DNA from: Candidatus Krumholzibacteriota bacterium
Lineage (GTDB): Bacteria > Krumholzibacteriota > Krumholzibacteriia > Krumholzibacteriales > Krumholzibacteriaceae
Assembly (NCBI GenBank): GCA_016932415.1
Contig: JAFGCX010000009.1
Span: 1 to 64,000 of the forward strand
DNA: 64,000 nucleotides
Direction of reading: 5' to 3'
Shown: one piece after another, positions 4,154-57,938 of the stretch
Layout of the letters: each line of letters opens with the position of its first letter
Position numbering within the stretch: the first letter of the stretch is position 1
Position numbers and translations under genes: made by a program
Notes under the pieces: model-generated
Seen by the model: the letters and a program-made list of their open reading frames with translations, nothing else
Database searches by the model: none
What the model was told of the DNA's origin: nothing

Positions 4154-7100
4154 TCACTTGTCCGAAAGAATGGCAAGAAGGTCTTTCTCAAGCGATTCTG
4201 AAGGAGTCTCGACTATTCTTCCGATCTCACTGCCGTCGCGCAGTATGATTATCGTAGCGACCCTTTCCACGTCGAACCACTTTCTGATATCCCGTGACCA
4301 GTTAAACAATCTTGCCGGAATCGGCATATCGATCGTAAATCGTGAAGATCCGACGGCGAGCATTCTGATCTCCGAAACGGGATATTCCATTTTTTCCAGT
4401 ATTTTCCAGAGCCTGGGGATCTCCCTTCGCGAGTCCGGACACCAGGTGCCGAGGACGCAGAGTATTTCCACTCCGTAGATCTTTTCTTCAAGCACCGCGA
4501 TAGTCGCTTCATCCGGTTCGTACGCAAAGAATTCGCTGTCCCAGCCGTCGAGGCCCTCAATGATCTCTTCCCTCGTCACTTCTCCCATAAGGACAACGGT
4601 ATCATCACCCAGGTCGATTTTTTCCGCAGCTACTTTTTCCGGTTCTTTTTTCTTTTCATCTTTCAGCGGAGGATATGTCTCATTCCACCACTCAGGCTGA
4701 TCTTTCAGCCATTTGTCGAACCAGGCCAGCTGGGCGTCAGACCAGGATATGCGCTTTTTATAATCGAGGATGAAATGATTCTGTCCGGAATACTTGATAT
4801 ATTCTACTTCCTTACCAAGTACTTTCAGCGCCGTATACATCTGTTCGCTTTCCCCTGGAGGAACGTTGGTGTCGGAACCTCCGTGAAGGAGAAGAAGCGG
4901 TGTCGTTATTTTATCCGCGGCAAAGAGAGGACTCTGGTCGACATAGATATCAGGCCTGTTCCATGGATAGCTTCCGGCAGCTGAAACGGCATTATAGGCG
5001 TATCCCCAGTATCCTTCTCCCCAGTAGCTCGGGATCATGCTTATCCCCGCGTGAGAGATCGCCGCGGCGAAAAGATCGGTTTTCGTGATAAGGAGCTGGG
5101 TCATGAATCCACCATACGACGCTCCTATACAGCCCACCCTGCAGGGGTTGACGAAAGGATGGGCCTGAAGGAATTCTTTCGTCCCGAATATGATCTCCTC
5201 CGCCGTGGTCTTACCCCAGTCATTTACATGAGCCGTTGAAAATTCCTGGCCGAAACCAGTGGCGCCGCTCGGTTGAAGCACATAGACGACATAACCTTTT
5301 GCCGCCCAGAGGTTCTTTGGATATCTGCCTCCAAAAGCGCGATTGACCGGGGAAGTCCCCCCATAATAATAGACTATACAGGGGTATTTCTTTTCCGCGT
5401 CGAAATCCGGAGGATAGTGAACCCGGCCGACGATCTTTACACCTTTTTCACTGATGAAATCCCAGTTCTCGATCTTTCCGAGCCTGACATTTTCCATCAT
5501 TTCCCTGTCGGGATCATAGATCTCCTTTGCCTTTCCATTTTTAAGGTTGGCGTAATATAACTTTGCAGGTTGATCAGCACCCGATCCGGAGAAGACCATT
5601 GAAAGGCTATTATCGCTTATATCACCCCTGCTTATCACGTCGACGCCGAAATCGAATTCATTGAATCTGCTTTTCCGTGGATCAAACCTGTAGCATTTTA
5701 CGTATGATCCGCTTTCGGCAACGATATATATGTTCCCGTCGGCTTCAGACCAGACAGCCCTCTGCACCGCGGGATCAAATTCTCTCGTGATCGGTCTTGC
5801 TTTTTTCGTTTCGGGGCTGAAAATATAAAGCTGGTGGTCGTAATCATTCGGGATCAATCCATCAGCGATATTTTTTCCATCCTTGCCAAAGGTTGATGGG
5901 CCTCCGGTTATAAGTATCTCGCTTCCGTCAGGCGACCACGCGGCATTATTAAGCCACTGTCCCTCCCACAGAAGCGAAGTACTCATATCGTTGAGATCGA
6001 GAATCAGGAGCTGAGAAGAAAAGAAGGGACGTTTTTCAAGATCCTCGTAACCTTTCTGCACGAGAAGTCTTTGTCCGTCGGGGTGAATATCATAGACGAA
6101 GATGTCGTGTTTTCCCGTCGCGATCTTTCGTGTCGTCCCACCCGGCACCGAAGTCAGATATGTGCTTGTCCTGTTCCTGGCATAGTCAGTCCTATCCTCT
6201 ATCCCCCTGAGTCTTTTTATCCCTGAGGGATCTTCTTTATAATTCTCTTCGACGTAATAGATCATGTAAGTCTCGTCGGGGCTCCACAGATATCCGCCGA
6301 GATCCTTTATCCCTTCCAGGACCGTTTCCGTCCTTCCCGATTCAAGATCGAGGATCTTTATTGAACCGGCGCCATTGGAAAAAAAGGAATATGAAAGACG
6401 GTGACCGGAAGGAGCCCACCCCACATTTCTCATGCGGGAATCGTCAAGCATTCTGACCATGGTCCCCTCTGGTAGAGATCTGATCTCCCTCCATGATTCC
6501 CTTTCTCCGTCCGGGGGAAGAAATCTCCAGTAACTTATCAGCGCCAGTTTTCCGTCAGGGGAGAGGTCGATAGAACCAATGTTGTTCACATCGAGGATGT
6601 TGGAGATATCAAGGGGAGCCGATGGGTCGATAGAAGCCTTGATGGGAGTGTCAAAGCCTTCGCCTGGTCTTATGCGGGCGTCGAAGCTCCATACTGAAAC
6701 GGAATCAGCCGGCATATAGACTGTCTTGACAACGACCAGGTGCTTTCCCTGCTTGAGATTTTCCGTAGCCGAGACCCTGTGCCTCGTCTTTCCCGTTCTT
6801 TCCTTGAGTGATTTTGCTGCTGATCTGCCGTCGATATACAGTTCGAACGGATCAGAGCCTGATACTTCCATCTCGATCTTCGTCCAGCGATGTGTCTCAA
6901 TATATGAAGCAAGATATGTTATCAACGGTTCATTTCCAGCCGTGTCGAGGTGGACTCCGTCCGTGTCGGGTCTTGCCGGTGTCCACAGGGCGCTGCCTCC
7001 CAATGGCAGGTATTCGACTGATTTTCCCACTGGTTTGAAGGCGTCGATTCTCATGTCCCCGAAGGAGAGAAGGAATTTGCTGTCATTATCAGTCTTTTCT

Positions 7101-7312
7101 TCCTGGTGGAAGGCTGGAAGAGTCGTGGTAACAGGCCCAAGAACAAGCCACTCGCCTATCTGAATATAGGGTGTCTTGTCTGGTTCAGCCCCTGATGAAT
7201 CCTGAGGCGCCGCTTCGGGAGTCGCAGAGAAGGCACCGGGCGCCGGAATGAATAATGCGGACAATATCGCGAGAATGACCAGAACGGCCCGAAATTCGAT
7301 CGATCTACGCAT
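4154..7312 (-). CDS. S9 (prolyl-oligopeptidase-like) peptidase fused to a thioredoxin-like domain
   Basis: A secreted protein of 1052 residues. An N-terminal signal peptide (about 1-30, Arg-rich start, hydrophobic core) leads to a domain of unknown function and then WD/DPP-type beta-propeller repeats (for example SPDGKLALIS, WSPDETYMIYY, WSPDGSEILI). The S9 alpha/beta hydrolase domain follows, with triad residues Ser732 (GASYGGF), Asp814 (GGSDTNVPP) and His846 (QNHF). A Lys/Glu-rich linker then joins a C-terminal thioredoxin-fold segment (about 895-1052). Its active site is GTWCPDSRREIP, a monothiol C-P-D-S rather than CxxC. S9 enzymes release di- or oligopeptides or free amino acids from peptides; the fused domain is unusual. 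ATG start; the gene is divergent from a thioredoxin lipoprotein. Confidence 0.93.
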   Translation of the reverse strand: MRRSIEFRAVLVILAILSALFIPAPGAFSATPEAAPQDSSGAEPDKTPYIQIGEWLVLGPVTTTLPAFHQEEKTDNDSKFLLSFGDMRIDAFKPVGKSVEYLPLGGSALWTPARPDTDGVHLDTAGNEPLITYLASYIETHRWTKIEMEVSGSDPFELYIDGRSAAKSLKERTGKTRHRVSATENLKQGKHLVVVKTVYMPADSVSVWSFDARIRPGEGFDTPIKASIDPSAPLDISNILDVNNIGSIDLSPDGKLALISYWRFLPPDGERESWREIRSLPEGTMVRMLDDSRMRNVGWAPSGHRLSYSFFSNGAGSIKILDLESGRTETVLEGIKDLGGYLWSPDETYMIYYVEENYKEDPSGIKRLRGIEDRTDYARNRTSTYLTSVPGGTTRKIATGKHDIFVYDIHPDGQRLLVQKGYEDLEKRPFFSSQLLILDLNDMSTSLLWEGQWLNNAAWSPDGSEILITGGPSTFGKDGKNIADGLIPNDYDHQLYIFSPETKKARPITREFDPAVQRAVWSEADGNIYIVAESGSYVKCYRFDPRKSRFNEFDFGVDVISRGDISDNSLSMVFSGSGADQPAKLYYANLKNGKAKEIYDPDREMMENVRLGKIENWDFISEKGVKIVGRVHYPPDFDAEKKYPCIVYYYGGTSPVNRAFGGRYPKNLWAAKGYVVYVLQPSGATGFGQEFSTAHVNDWGKTTAEEIIFGTKEFLQAHPFVNPCRVGCIGASYGGFMTQLLITKTDLFAAAISHAGISMIPSYWGEGYWGYAYNAVSAAGSYPWNRPDIYVDQSPLFAADKITTPLLLLHGGSDTNVPPGESEQMYTALKVLGKEVEYIKYSGQNHFILDYKKRISWSDAQLAWFDKWLKDQPEWWNETYPPLKDEKKKEPEKVAAEKIDLGDDTVVLMGEVTREEIIEGLDGWDSEFFAYEPDEATIAVLEEKIYGVEILCVLGTWCPDSRREIPRLWKILEKMEYPVSEIRMLAVGSSRFTIDMPIPARLFNWSRDIRKWFDVERVATIIILRDGSEIGRIVETPSESLEKDLLAILSDK

Positions 7313-10548: not shown

Positions 10549-11757
10549 GTGCGAATAGGAATGGTTCTGAAAGGGAGAATTCCTCCTCCCGATATTCGGG
10601 TGGAGAAGGAAGCAGGCACTCTGATTTCGGAAGGGCACAAGGTATTTCTGCTTCTTGAAAGAGGACCGGGACAGCCTCTGCGGGACACGATCCATGGCAT
10701 CGAACTTTTCCGCGGCGTGGAAATGGGGAAATCAAGGGAAAAATGGCACAGATATACTTTCTCCTTTACTTACAAGGATACCCTCTGGCGCAAGGCGATC
10801 GATGATTTTGTGACGGCCAACTCGATCGATGTCCTCCATATCCATGATCTGCCTCTTGTCGGGGAAGCAGTCGAAATCGCGCGGAAACACTCGATACCGG
10901 TCGTCGCCGATATGCACGAGAACTATCCCGGAGGCCTTCAGGTATGGTATACGAGCAGATTCAAGAAAAAGACGATCTACAATTTCAAAAGATGGGCGAG
11001 CTATGAAAAAAATATACTGGCAAAGGCTGACGCCGTCATCGCAGTGATAGAGGAATCGAGAGATCGTTTGAAAGGAATTGGGATCGAGGCGGAAAGGATA
11101 TTCGTGGTGCCGAACACGGCACATGTAGAGAGGATAAATATCCCTCTTGATAAAGAGATAACACGCAGGTACGAAGGAAGTTTCATGGTCTCGTATATCG
11201 GGGGGTTCGCCCCGCACAGGGGACTGGATATCGTAATACGTTCTCTTCCGAAGTTGAGGGATGAAGTGCCCGGCCTGAAAGTCGTGCTGGTAGGCGACAG
11301 GAACAAACCGTACATGGATTACCTCAAGGGTCTCGCGGATGATCTCGGCTGTAGCGACCTGGTAGAGATGCCAGGCTGGCAACCCTTCGACAAGATATGG
11401 AGTTATATCGATTCAAGTTCGGTGTGCCTTGTGCCGCATTCGCGTAATCCCCACACCGACACGACGATTCCGCACAAGATATTTCAGTATATGATGGTCA
11501 AAAAACCAGTGATAGTCAGCGATTGTCCGCCGCTTAAAAGAATAATAGAAGATGCCGGTGGAGGGCTTGTCTTCAGATATGATTCTCCCGAAGAACTCGC
11601 CTTGTCTATAATAAGGCTGTTCAAGGATGAGAACCTGCGCAGGGAAATGGGAGAATCGGGACAGAAAGCTTTTCTAGACCGCTATAACTGGGACAGCACG
11701 AGTGGCGATCTCAAAAGATTATACAGAGGCCTGTCGATTGAAAGAAAAGAGAAATAA
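10549..11757 (+). CDS. Glycosyltransferase family 4 protein
   Basis: A 402-residue GT-B glycosyltransferase. The N-terminal half has the Rossmann acceptor domain (IHDLPLVGEAVEIA, MHENYPGG). The C-terminal donor domain has SYIGGFAPHRGLD, VLVGDR and the GT4-type acidic region H-K-I-F-Q-Y-M-M (about 305-312). GTG start with a purine-rich site upstream. First gene of a three-gene unit; its stop overlaps the next ATG by one base, so the two are co-translated. Likely adds a sugar to a surface glycan or nucleotide-sugar product; substrate unknown. Confidence 0.9.
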   Translation: MRIGMVLKGRIPPPDIRVEKEAGTLISEGHKVFLLLERGPGQPLRDTIHGIELFRGVEMGKSREKWHRYTFSFTYKDTLWRKAIDDFVTANSIDVLHIHDLPLVGEAVEIARKHSIPVVADMHENYPGGLQVWYTSRFKKKTIYNFKRWASYEKNILAKADAVIAVIEESRDRLKGIGIEAERIFVVPNTAHVERINIPLDKEITRRYEGSFMVSYIGGFAPHRGLDIVIRSLPKLRDEVPGLKVVLVGDRNKPYMDYLKGLADDLGCSDLVEMPGWQPFDKIWSYIDSSSVCLVPHSRNPHTDTTIPHKIFQYMMVKKPVIVSDCPPLKRIIEDAGGGLVFRYDSPEELALSIIRLFKDENLRREMGESGQKAFLDRYNWDSTSGDLKRLYRGLSIERKEK

Positions 11758-12875
11758 TGGAAGTCAGATTGCTCGATCTGAAATCGCAGTATAAAGGAAT
11801 CCGTGATGAGATAGAGAAAGCAGTAAAGGAAGTTCTTGAATCCCAGTATTTTATCCTTGGTCCGAGAGTCGCGGAATTTGAAGAGACAGTCGCCAGCTAT
11901 TGCGGCGTCTCCAATGGGATCGGTGTGGCATCGGGGTCCGACGCGATTCTTATTTCTCTTATGGCGCTTGGGACAGGACCCGGGGATGAGGTCATCACGA
12001 CGCCTTATACTTTTTTTTCGACTGTTAGTTCGATCACCAGGCTTGGCGCTACTCCGGTCATGGTCGATATCGATCCGAAAACATATAATATCGATCCGGT
12101 CAAGGTGGCCGAGGCAGTGACCAGTAGGACAAAAGCCGTCCTTCCCGTGCACCTTTTCGGTCAGACGGCAGATATGGATGGCATAGAAAAGGCAGTCTCC
12201 GGCAGAGGGATACCTGTCATCGAGGACGCATGCCAGTCTATCGGCGCGACCTACAATGGGAAAAGAGCAGGTTCGCTCGGGATCGCGGGATGCTTTTCGT
12301 TTTTTCCCTCAAAGAATCTCGGTGGATGCGGGGATGGAGGAATGATCGTATCAGATGACGCAGAATTCGCGTCGAAGTGCCGCATGTTGAGGAATCATGG
12401 CGGGCACGAAAGATATTATCACGATGTCGTTGGGATCAACAGCAGGCTTGATGCTATCCAGGCGGCTGTCCTTGGAATCAAGATGAAATATCTCGATGAA
12501 TGGAGCAGCGGACGGAGAATGAACGCATCCTACTACAATGAGGGATTGGCCGGTATCGAAGGGGTCTCGACCCCTTTCGTGGAGGATGGTAATGAAAGCA
12601 TCTTCAATCAGTACATAATAAGGACGAGGGAGAGAGACAATCTGAAAGCCCACCTTGGCAGCAAGGGCATCGGATGCGAGATCTATTACCCGGTGCCTCT
12701 GCATCTTCAGAAATGTTTCAGTTATCTTGGAGGAAAAGAAGGGGATCTTCCCGCGTCTGAGTCAGCCGCGAAAGAGACGCTCGCCCTTCCTGTCTATACG
12801 GAACTTTCGAGGACAGAGCAGGATTATGTTATCGAATGCATCAGTGAGTTCATGATAAGCGCGGGCCGGGCATAG
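11757..12875 (+). CDS. DegT/DnrJ/EryC1/StrS-family sugar aminotransferase
   Basis: A PLP-dependent aminotransferase of 372 residues that converts a keto-sugar nucleotide to an amino-sugar nucleotide. ASGSDAI (about 58-64) binds the PLP phosphate, IEDACQSIGA holds the pyridine-nitrogen Asp, and Lys186 in FFPSKNLGG forms the Schiff base. The family's C-terminal motif for swapping active sites (NQYIIRT) is present. Translationally coupled to the glycosyltransferase before it. The context points to an amino sugar (such as a 3- or 4-amino-deoxy hexose) in the surface polysaccharide. Confidence 0.93.
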   Translation: MEVRLLDLKSQYKGIRDEIEKAVKEVLESQYFILGPRVAEFEETVASYCGVSNGIGVASGSDAILISLMALGTGPGDEVITTPYTFFSTVSSITRLGATPVMVDIDPKTYNIDPVKVAEAVTSRTKAVLPVHLFGQTADMDGIEKAVSGRGIPVIEDACQSIGATYNGKRAGSLGIAGCFSFFPSKNLGGCGDGGMIVSDDAEFASKCRMLRNHGGHERYYHDVVGINSRLDAIQAAVLGIKMKYLDEWSSGRRMNASYYNEGLAGIEGVSTPFVEDGNESIFNQYIIRTRERDNLKAHLGSKGIGCEIYYPVPLHLQKCFSYLGGKEGDLPASESAAKETLALPVYTELSRTEQDYVIECISEFMISAGRA

Positions 12876-12906: not shown

Positions 12907-14031
12907 TTGAAGATCGTATGTTTTTCCGAGATACAGTGGCGGTATGTAAGGACGCGAAAACAGCAGATTCTCAGCCGTTTTCCAGGTGACTGGGATATAC
13001 TCTTCCTTTCAAGCGTAGTGGCGGGAAAGAAGAACAATTTCAGGCCGATGAAAGATGGCCGGATCACGCATCTATGCATCCCCGTCTTTAAGAATTTTCC
13101 CCAGAAATCATTGAAAACCCTCTTTTCCTTTCCTCCCGCGAGGTTTATGTGGAATCTGATCCTTCTGGTCTGGGTGAGGATCGCTCTAGCCGTGACCGGG
13201 TTCGCTGGCCGCGACAGGGTCTTTTATGTATCAAACATTTATTATTCGGCAATCATCCCTTTTTTGCCGAGAAAAATGATGCTCTACGATTGTAATGATG
13301 ATCCGATGGAGTTCCCCGATGCTCCTGAATGGTCGAGGAAGTATTTCAGAAAGCTTGTCTCAATGGCGGACAGGACAGTCGCGGTCAGCCGCGGGTTGAT
13401 GCAACGATTGAGTGAACTCGGGGTCAGGGATATCCACTATATAGGTAACGGTGTTGATTATGATCTCTTCAGAAAAGCGATCGAATCGGGGGTGCCGGAA
13501 GAGATGAAAGGCCTGAAAAGGCCACTGATAGGATACTCGGGGGCGATAGCTCCATGGTTTGATATGAAGACTCTCGATCTAGTCGCCGCTTCTTTCAAAG
13601 ATGCTTCGATCGTCCTCTTCGGACCCCTTTTCGAACCAGGAAGAGGAGAACTGGAAGATATAATCAGGAAAAGAGGTAATATCCATTATCTCGGTTCCTT
13701 TCCATATGAGATGCTTGGGGCCTATATCGCCGCTCTTGACGTCGCGATCATACCGCTGCAGATGAATGAACTGATGCGGATGGCTGATCCCAATAAACTG
13801 TATGAGTACGCAGCGGCTGAAAGACCGATTGTGACTTTTAAATTCGCAAAAGAGATGGAAGATCTTTCAGGTTTTGTATACCTGGCCGAGACAGCGGAAG
13901 AATTCGTTGAAGGGGTCAGGACAGCTCTCGATAAAGGCGGGAACAGTAAGAGTTTGAGGGAGTTTGCCGTAAAAAGCAGCTGGCAGGCACGCGCCGATGA
14001 AATGGTAGCACTTGTCATGGATTACAACTGA
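12907..14031 (+). CDS. Glycosyltransferase (GT-B, TuaH-like)
   Basis: A 374-residue glycosyltransferase. YDCNDDPMEF (about 116-125) resembles the YDC.DD motif of TuaH-type enzymes. AVSRGLMQRL and NGVDYDLF mark the interdomain region, and PNKLYEYAAAERPIV is the donor-binding C-terminal segment. TTG start with AAGGA about 11 bases upstream. Third gene of the cluster. It overlaps the extended frame of the next gene only if an upstream start is used; the preferred ATG at 14057 leaves 25 bases. Confidence 0.88.
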   Translation: MKIVCFSEIQWRYVRTRKQQILSRFPGDWDILFLSSVVAGKKNNFRPMKDGRITHLCIPVFKNFPQKSLKTLFSFPPARFMWNLILLVWVRIALAVTGFAGRDRVFYVSNIYYSAIIPFLPRKMMLYDCNDDPMEFPDAPEWSRKYFRKLVSMADRTVAVSRGLMQRLSELGVRDIHYIGNGVDYDLFRKAIESGVPEEMKGLKRPLIGYSGAIAPWFDMKTLDLVAASFKDASIVLFGPLFEPGRGELEDIIRKRGNIHYLGSFPYEMLGAYIAALDVAIIPLQMNELMRMADPNKLYEYAAAERPIVTFKFAKEMEDLSGFVYLAETAEEFVEGVRTALDKGGNSKSLREFAVKSSWQARADEMVALVMDYN

Positions 14032-14056
14032 GCAGGATCCAACAGGAAAGGGCGTT

Positions 14057-15277
14057 ATGAGAAGAAAACTTTACATGGTTCTAATCACGATGATCGGCAT
14101 CTTTTTGCTGAGCCAGGCCTGTTCCGATGAACCGGATAATTCCGATCTATATCTGCTTGAGGAACTCGAAACGGCATCGGCGGTCAAAGATCCCGGGCAA
14201 CGGGTCGAGCGGCTCGATCTCTACGCCAGGGCTCACAATACACATCCTTACAGGATACTGGCATATGTAAAACTTCTTGAGACGATCGCCACTGATCTGA
14301 ACGATCTTGACCGCGCCCTGGATCTTTTCGAAGGTTACCTGGCGAAGGAGACCGATCCGGAGGCAAGGGGAGAGCTGCTTTACAGAAAATTCGCCTATCT
14401 CTGGAATTCTCACGGGGAAAAGGCGATAGATCTCGCGGAAGAGTTGATCGACGGAGGGGAAAAAGACTACAAACTGTTTCTCTATATCGGTTATTACACG
14501 ATGGATGATGCGGCGACGTCGGGACTTGCCCGAAGATTACTTGAAAAAGCGATCGAAAACACGGAAGACCGGTTTAAAAAGAACCACATCCTTACCGTAC
14601 TGGCAGAGCTGGAAGACAAAGCGGGAAGAAGCGATGAAGCGTATGAGACGGCCTTGCGGGCATCGGATTATACATTCGCGAACGAACTTGTCGGCCGGGC
14701 CCTCTGGGAGAGAGGCGAAAGGAAAGAAAGCCTTGAGGCATATATAAGGTTGGCGGCAGGAGCTCCGGGATATGGTGAGCATATCAGACTTGACAGCCTC
14801 TACGCTCTTGTCTATCAGGATACGGACCATCTGAAGGGAAAGATCCTGGATAAACGGCTTAATGACGAAGGACCGGTCCCTGATTGGGACTTTATCGATA
14901 TCAGGGGAAGAAAACACAGGATATCGGAATACAGAGGCACAAAGCTTGTGATCAGCGCGTGGAGCCCCACCTGACCTCCATGTATTGCGGAGTTGCCGCA
15001 AATGGAAGAACTCAGGAAAAAAGAAGAAGAACTTGGTTTCAGGATACTGCTGACCGATGCCAAGGGAATGCTCGGTAAGACTCGCGAGATCCTCGATGAA
15101 AAGAATATCACGATACCATTGCTTCTCGATAGCCGGGGATATGCCAGGAACAAGCTGAACGCGATGTATACTCCTACTACCTTTATCATTGATGGAAAAG
15201 GCCGGTTAAGGGCGAGACTGGTCGGAGGATCGGAAAATATTGTAGAAGTAGTCACGGACCTGCTTGAAAAGATATGA
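14057..15277 (+). CDS. TlpA-like thioredoxin lipoprotein with in-frame TGA (probable selenoprotein, UPPC motif)
   Basis: Read through TGA 14972-14974, this frame encodes 406 residues. A lipoprotein signal ends at Cys22 (LSQAC). About 250 residues of helical, TPR-like sequence follow, then a C-terminal TlpA/AhpC-TSA-type thioredoxin domain (about 280-406). That domain begins HRISEYRGTKLVISAW and continues after the TGA as PPCIAELPQMEEL. The TGA falls at the first Cys of the family motif W-x-x-x-C-P-P-C-x-x-E-x-P, giving U306-P-P-C309. Later motifs LLLDSRGYARNKL and YTPTTFIIDGKGR (cis-Pro) are intact with no shift, so only the TGA interrupts the frame. A SECIS-like hairpin starts 3 bases after it. 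ATG 14057 has AGGAAAGGG upstream. The alternative is a single-base error or nonsense mutation; the hairpin argues against that. A periplasmic thiol oxidoreductase or peroxidase role is inferred. Confidence 0.8.
14978..15005 (+). promoter_or_regulatory. Candidate bacterial SECIS element
   Basis: Directly after the in-frame TGA, CCAT (14978-14981) pairs with ATGG (15002-15005). After a 3-base bulge, TTGCGG (14985-14990) pairs with CCGCAA (14996-15001), leaving the apical loop AGTTG. The loop carries the G-U pair expected for SelB recognition. The 16 bases from TGA to the loop are close to the 17 in E. coli fdhF. All of it lies within the coding sequence, as in other bacteria. Confidence 0.7.
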
Positions 15278-57647: not shown

Positions 57648-57938
57648 TCAGACTCGTTTATTTTTTTCCCAGTACTGGTTTCTTGACGGCAGGCCTCTTG
57701 TGTTTCTTGACGCTTTTCGGGAAGATTTTTCGATCCTGTCGCTGAAATCAAGAAGTTTTCTGCCGATCCTGGAATGAAGCGTCCGGATAGGATCTTTTGC
57801 TTTTCTGCACTGATACAGAGCGATGGTGTATTCCCTGGGAAAAGCGCGCATCATCTCGAAGATAAAATCGTGTGAATCGAACCGGTCCTCCATTTTTTCA
57901 AGGATAGATTCAAAGACGGTGTCGACGAACAGCTCCAT
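57648..57938 (-). CDS. Small unknown protein
   Basis: 96 residues with no family recognised. Acidic N-terminal helix (MELFVDTVFESILEKMEDRF) and a basic C-terminal half. The ATG has GGAAAGG five bases upstream and follows the nitroreductase stop by 18 bases, which supports a real operon gene. It has no signal peptide or membrane segment. Confidence 0.65.
   Translation of the reverse strand: MELFVDTVFESILEKMEDRFDSHDFIFEMMRAFPREYTIALYQCRKAKDPIRTLHSRIGRKLLDFSDRIEKSSRKASRNTRGLPSRNQYWEKNKRV

Follow-up and report, generated by a model that had tools for sequence, protein, structure and literature searches.

A gene at 14,057–15,277 on the forward strand of the DNA analysed here, a 64,000-nucleotide stretch of a Candidatus Krumholzibacteriota genome (the window), encodes a genuine selenoprotein, a conclusion in which we have very high confidence. 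Codon 306, an in-frame UGA, is almost certainly read as selenocysteine (Sec). The protein is most likely a periplasmic thiol:disulfide (selenenylsulfide) reductase, and our confidence in identity and function taken together is high, though a step lower than for the identity itself. The window lies on contig C9 of a host genome of 3.1 Mb that is 95% complete.

The TGA occupies positions 14972-14974, in the context AGC CCC ACC TGA CCT CCA TGT. When it is read through, 14057-15274 forms a single open frame of 406 codons followed by a TGA terminator at 15275-15277, and codon 306 is the sole departure from translation table 11. The redox motif of the resulting protein is WSPTUPPC, which places the TGA at the first redox position of a TlpA/ResA-type domain. 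Standard annotation from the ATG at 14057 would stop after 305 amino acids, immediately ahead of the redox site, and a mechanical list of open reading frames gives a 320-residue product from a TTG at 14012 plus a separate 94-residue frame from 14993. A first-pass annotation made from the letters alone had claimed an unshifted frame across one TGA, a single TlpA-type domain on both sides of it, Sec at the first position of U-P-P-C and a gene that standard annotation would split in two; all four claims agree with the data presented here, the last with the 305-residue product and the 94-residue frame as the two pieces. Genome-wide recoding of TGA to a sense codon was ruled out, since the selenoprotein gene and several of its orthologues themselves end in TGA. 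When the window was scanned against the syntenic DNA of relatives, position 14972 stood out as a TGA–TGA match flanked by codon-like conservation on either side and not antisense to a long open reading frame. One other such match, at 57775/57811, sits in a low-complexity frame with several stops. The many further TGA–TGA matches from the whole-window read-through scan were discarded as artefacts, nearly all of them antisense to long open reading frames. The match at 14972 is not due to chance: profile searching recovers the frame in the order's other genomes as a single protein containing exactly one TGA, and this TGA aligns in every orthologue that spans the site.

Table 1. Features of the selenoprotein gene, its upstream neighbours and two further selenoprotein genes of the host genome. 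Positions are those of the window unless a genome and contig are given.
Feature	Position	Strand	Basis or remark
Glycosyltransferase group 1 gene	10549..11757	+	Upstream operon gene
DegT/DnrJ/EryC1 aminotransferase gene	11757..12875	+	Upstream operon gene
Second glycosyltransferase gene	12907..14031	+	Upstream operon gene; ends 25 nt before the ATG
RBS-like AGGAAAGGG	14044..14052	+	5' of the ATG; by inspection
Selenoprotein gene	14057..15277	+	ATG start, 406 codons, Sec at codon 306, terminator TGA 15275-15277
Signal peptide ending at lipobox Cys22 (LLSQAC)	14057..14122	+	Lipobox read by inspection
TPR-like all-helical segment, residues 30-267	14144..14857	+	AlphaFold2, weak TPR Pfam matches, Foldseek
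TlpA/ResA-type thioredoxin-fold domain, residues 273-406	14873..15274	+	Pfam, AlphaFold2, Foldseek; cis-Pro TP 372-373
Sec codon UGA (U306), UPPC redox motif	14972..14974	+	TGA in 21/21 orthologues
Cys309, resolving	14981-14983	+	UPPC motif
bSECIS-type hairpin	14985..15001	+	UUGCGG 14985-14990, loop AGUUG 14991-14995, CCGCAA 14996-15001
Optional outer helix	14977-14981 / 15002-15006 (14977..15006)	+	Present in window sequence; not conserved
SelD selenoprotein, GFSSCLGUASK	G000:C10:246767-247690 (L016)	-	SelD itself a selenoprotein
Peroxiredoxin with in-frame TGA at TFVU	G000:C25:32770-33165 (L111)	-	Standard Sec-peroxiredoxin motif

The product is predicted to be an exported lipoprotein with a TPR-like arm and a TlpA fold that carries Sec306 and Cys309. 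The lipobox Cys22 is kept in all 18 full-length orthologues. AlphaFold2 modelled the full protein with a pLDDT of 91.8 and a pTM of 0.86, with helices at residues 30-267 and a thioredoxin fold at about 273-406; the N-terminal half modelled alone reached a pLDDT of 91.4. The first-pass annotation had described this half as a helical lipoprotein segment, and the description stood, refined by AlphaFold2, Pfam and Foldseek to a TPR-like superhelix. Its Foldseek matches to TPR superhelices reach E values of only about 1e-3, and several family members give weak matches to TPR Pfam profiles; we hold the label "TPR-like" with moderate confidence. The Pfam AhpC-TSA/Redoxin domain extends across the TGA (residues 273-386, E=3.5e-14), with 53.3 bits for PF00578 (AhpC/TSA) against a cut-off of 26. 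The C-terminal half matches ResA and TlpA both by sequence and, in Foldseek, by solved structure, and the structure matches include a mixed disulfide of TlpA with the copper chaperone ScoI. Residues T372-P373 are invariant among the aligned orthologues.

Orthologues were collected by protein and profile searches across 80 genomes of the phylum and come from records filed mostly as Candidatus Krumholzibacteriota and in a few cases as Latescibacterota or plain bacterium. They occur, full-length or truncated by contig ends, throughout families f1 and f2 of the order and share 36-67% identity. The codon at the Sec column is TGA in all 21 orthologues that span the site; TGC, TGT, TAA and TAG were never seen there. 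The redox motif takes the forms UPPC, UPSC and UMPC, with [IV]AE and [LFV]P after it, and the domain downstream of the TGA is intact in each of the 21. Eight more distant relatives from families f4, f6 and f8 of the class likewise have TGA at this column, within UPAC, UPGC, URYC or UGGC, and each carries an N-terminal extension that is partly matched by the profile or helical by eye. No Cys version of the TPR-like plus TlpA architecture was found in the 80 genomes, and Cys at the Sec column was seen in remote TlpA paralogues only. The classic Sec/Cys exchange is therefore shown against those remote paralogues alone. A TlpA-domain tree places the Sec proteins to one side of a single branch, with weak support (77/90). 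The gene can also be lost: in a genome that is 97% complete in two contigs (G033; L134, G033:C1:238000-247000), both the selenoprotein gene and the adjoining rhomboid gene are absent between the DegT and MBL genes, and no replacement was found at this syntenic place. Three congeners of G033 possess the selenoprotein.

A bSECIS-type hairpin, which the first-pass annotation had suggested searching for, lies downstream of the UGA and shows covariation. Its loop begins 16 nt after the UGA, its stem has 6 bp, and the region folds with -12.9 kcal/mol. The published bSECIS rules, as laid out in the available text of a recent review (PMC13188914), specify 3-9 nt in the loop, a G within its first two positions, 4-16 bp in the stem, a distance of 16-37 nt from the UGA and a minimum free energy of at most -7.5 kcal/mol; the window hairpin conforms in loop, stem, distance and energy. 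Every one of the 21 orthologues uses GCG, GAG and CCG at codons +5, +6 and +8 (Ala, Glu and Pro), in contrast to the synonymous variation of 0.6-2.4 bits at nearly all remaining conserved residues. Recodings that keep the protein and draw on pooled codon usage would be expected to form the six stem pairs in about 5% of cases per gene; the pairs are formed in all 21 genes, which are not independent of each other by kinship. Over 28 distinct sequences the stem is paired in 99.4% of cells, and cells with compensatory double changes number 20, compared with 5.2+/-1.7 after shuffling and 0-4 after sliding, most of this covariation separating the order from the other families so that independent compensatory events are few. 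For example, a C-G pair of the order becomes U-A in families f4, f6 and f8, where GCG/CCG is changed to GUG/CCA or UCA with a concomitant replacement of Ala by Val, and in G034 a U-A pair of the stem becomes C-G together with a change from Gln to Arg. Eight Cys TlpA genes that were checked form 2-5 of the 6 pairs at the same place. Compared with synonymous recodings, the hairpin region has only a mildly lower energy (mean z -1.3), since some of the stem pairing is already favoured by the protein motif. Free energy alone is thus weak evidence, and the case for a SECIS element is carried by covariation and codon freezing. As judged from these sequence comparisons, codon freezing, pairing relative to recodings and covariation show that the RNA at the hairpin is under selection. 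An outer helix was rejected as a conserved element, with 60% of cells paired over 20 orthologues.

The first-pass annotation had noted that Sec use would need dedicated machinery elsewhere in the genome, and selA (E=3.1e-120), selB (E=9.2e-105), two selD genes above cut-off (E=4.3e-113 and 9.2e-101) and a tRNA-Sec with a TCA anticodon are all encoded by the host. Infernal scores the tRNA-Sec at 53.8 bits against a gathering score of 47, with CTTCAAA as the anticodon loop; its 3' end is lost at a contig end and the score is still above gathering. ARAGORN called no tRNA at the locus where Infernal finds tRNA-Sec, probably because the contig end cuts the gene. Most relatives have full-length tRNA-Sec genes of 66-76 bits. 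The host gene (L001:1494-1580) runs into the contig end, and the match in a congener (G024:C4:76605-76683) spans the same partial range of the model (9-83), so assembly may be broken by some feature on the 3' side, or this side may be different in both congeners. Two other selenoproteins of standard type are encoded by the host, SelD (GUASK) and a peroxiredoxin (TFVU). Given the complete machinery and these two standard selenoproteins, UGA is therefore decoded as Sec in the host independently of the TlpA-type gene. The second SelD (L092:2475-4739, G000:C10) is a 755-residue protein in which SelD, with GCACK at its active site, is fused behind a NifS-like class-V aminotransferase domain; the same genome thus keeps a Sec-SelD alongside a Cys NifS-SelD. 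In the portion of the Global Ocean Sampling (GOS) paper available to us (PMC2398784), a NifS-SelD fusion is given only for Geobacter sp. FRC-32. Within the phylum, selA is found in 78 of 80 genomes.

These data bear on two readings in which codon 306 is not Sec. Readthrough of UGA exists in bacteria and a product ending at codon 305 would be a complete lipoprotein, so the UGA could be an ordinary or leaky stop, with the 305-residue TPR-like lipoprotein as the working protein and the full-length form as a minor product carrying Trp or another residue. We consider this very improbable, since all 21 orthologues conserve the protein sequence of the 100 codons past the UGA, none of them has any other codon in its place, residue 306 fits the catalytic Cys of TlpA/ResA, and a covarying hairpin stands at bSECIS distance in a genome with the full Sec machinery. 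A sequencing error as the source of the TGA, or a pseudogene, is refuted by the orthologues and has a negligible probability: the same TGA recurs in independently assembled genomes from several studies, including the single-contig genome G014, and the sequence downstream of it shows no decay. Reads with TGC or TGT, homologues with TAA or TAG and a decayed downstream domain had each been named in the first-pass annotation as findings that would speak against Sec; the aligned column is TGA throughout and the domain is intact in all orthologues covering the site.

The selenoprotein gene is the last of four co-directional genes that encode, in order, a glycosyltransferase, a DegT aminotransferase, a second glycosyltransferase and the selenoprotein, and it faces a convergent rhomboid gene and an MBL/beta-CASP gene. 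The order of these genes is largely kept across families f1 and f2; genus g13 is without the second glycosyltransferase, and the rhomboid gene was not seen in genus g12. Elsewhere in the window, 4154-7312 on the reverse strand encodes a 1052-residue protein that by eye combines an S9-type peptidase-like part with a C-terminal thioredoxin-like stretch (LCVLGTWCPDSRREIPRL), an unusual fusion. A DsbD-type membrane protein is the usual electron source for TlpA-type domains, and the host genome encodes one. We propose that SelA, SelB, SelD and tRNA-Sec of the host would decode UGA 306 as Sec under the direction of the hairpin, and that the product would be exported and anchored by a lipid at Cys22. 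Sec306 and Cys309 would then form the redox pair of the TlpA/ResA-type domain. Electrons would probably be passed to it by the DsbD-type protein, Sec306 would attack a disulfide of the substrate, Cys309 would resolve the adduct, and the TPR-like arm may hold or select the substrate; donor, redox direction and substrate are inferred.

It is conceivable, if rather unlikely, that the protein is a selenoprotein with a task other than general disulfide reduction, such as a peroxidase, a thiol that handles copper or another metal, or a partner dedicated to one glycan enzyme of the operon. PF00578/Redoxin also covers peroxiredoxins, the TlpA-ScoI complex among the structural matches involves a copper chaperone, and the operon context is kept throughout the order. 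Against such roles, the UxxC motif with its resolving Cys three positions on and the cis-Pro TP form the layout of a reductase, unlike the TxxU of peroxiredoxins, and the best structural and profile matches are to the reductases ResA, TlpA and StoA. A peroxiredoxin selenoprotein of the TxxU type was ruled out, since the site reads S-P-T-U-P-P-C with a UxxC pair and the TFVU peroxiredoxin of the genome is a different gene. With the reductase as the favoured function, the operon context suggests that the protein may work with an envelope glycan pathway. A bolder proposal, which we advance tentatively and regard as more likely wrong than right, is that the TPR-like plus TlpA selenoproteins form one family across the class (UPPC, UPSC, UMPC, UPAC, UPGC, URYC and UGGC) in which Sec never goes back to Cys and the gene, where it disappears, has no substitute, and that in one order its tie to the glycosyltransferase/aminotransferase operon marks a step in the assembly of envelope glycans or glycoproteins that depends on Sec and for which no counterpart has been described.

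In every genome of the group, automatic annotation would end this protein just short of its active site and lose the redox half. The findings also add an uncultured phylum to the map of selenocysteine use, and Sec use so close to universal within it merits a survey of the full selenoproteome. The combination of UGA, conserved hairpin and operon provides a handle on why a periplasmic TlpA-type reductase keeps Sec over Cys across such divergence.

The first-pass annotation had called the protein a probable new selenoprotein. This held for architecture and lineage, but not for the active-site chemistry: Sec at the UxxC of a PF00578/TlpA-type domain is already known, and what is new is the TPR-like lipoprotein architecture and the lineage. 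Searches of the open-licence literature found no paper linking Krumholzibacteriota to selenocysteine and none on a TlpA selenoprotein with a lipoprotein. Selenoproteins with UxxC of the PF00578/TlpA-like/Redoxin type have been on record since the Sargasso Sea and GOS surveys of 2005-2008 (PMC1088965, PMC2398784, as far as their available text goes). Table 1 of the 2026 review (PMC13188914), as available in part, lists a Prx-like thiol:disulfide oxidoreductase, a thiol-disulfide isomerase-like protein (cd02966) and Redoxin (PF08534) as UxxC selenoproteins, the latter two from marine metagenomes and other lineages. At the Pfam level, the window protein shares with the Prx-like proteins ("Prx-like 1" in PMC2398784; also PMC1088965 and PMC13188914) the PF00578 thioredoxin fold and Sec as the first residue of UxxC. 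Unlike those proteins as described, it has a TPR-like lipoprotein segment; the fusions that the accessible part of the GOS survey (PMC2398784) names are with PP2C phosphatase, Secretin_N-like and unknown domains, and not with such a segment. It likewise resembles the cd02966 and PF08534 selenoproteins in its TlpA-like/Redoxin fold and UxxC active site, and differs from them, as they are outlined in the review (PMC13188914), by the added TPR-like lipoprotein architecture. The WAxxUGC protein of NF041054 also combines a ResA-like fold with an active-site Sec, but its motif is UGC rather than UPPC and the window protein scores 38.3 bits with its model against a cut-off of 300. The curated NCBIfam cut-offs for ResA, StoA, TlpA and DsbE were all missed as well (56.2 vs 170, 49.1 vs 210, 43 vs 230 and 29.3 vs 123, respectively), and no other NCBIfam model reached its cut-off either. 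The Cys-containing ResA, TlpA and StoA, which are membrane-anchored extracytoplasmic reductases, have the same fold (Foldseek TM normalised to target 0.64-0.89), but carry Cys where the window protein has Sec and are without the TPR-like domain.
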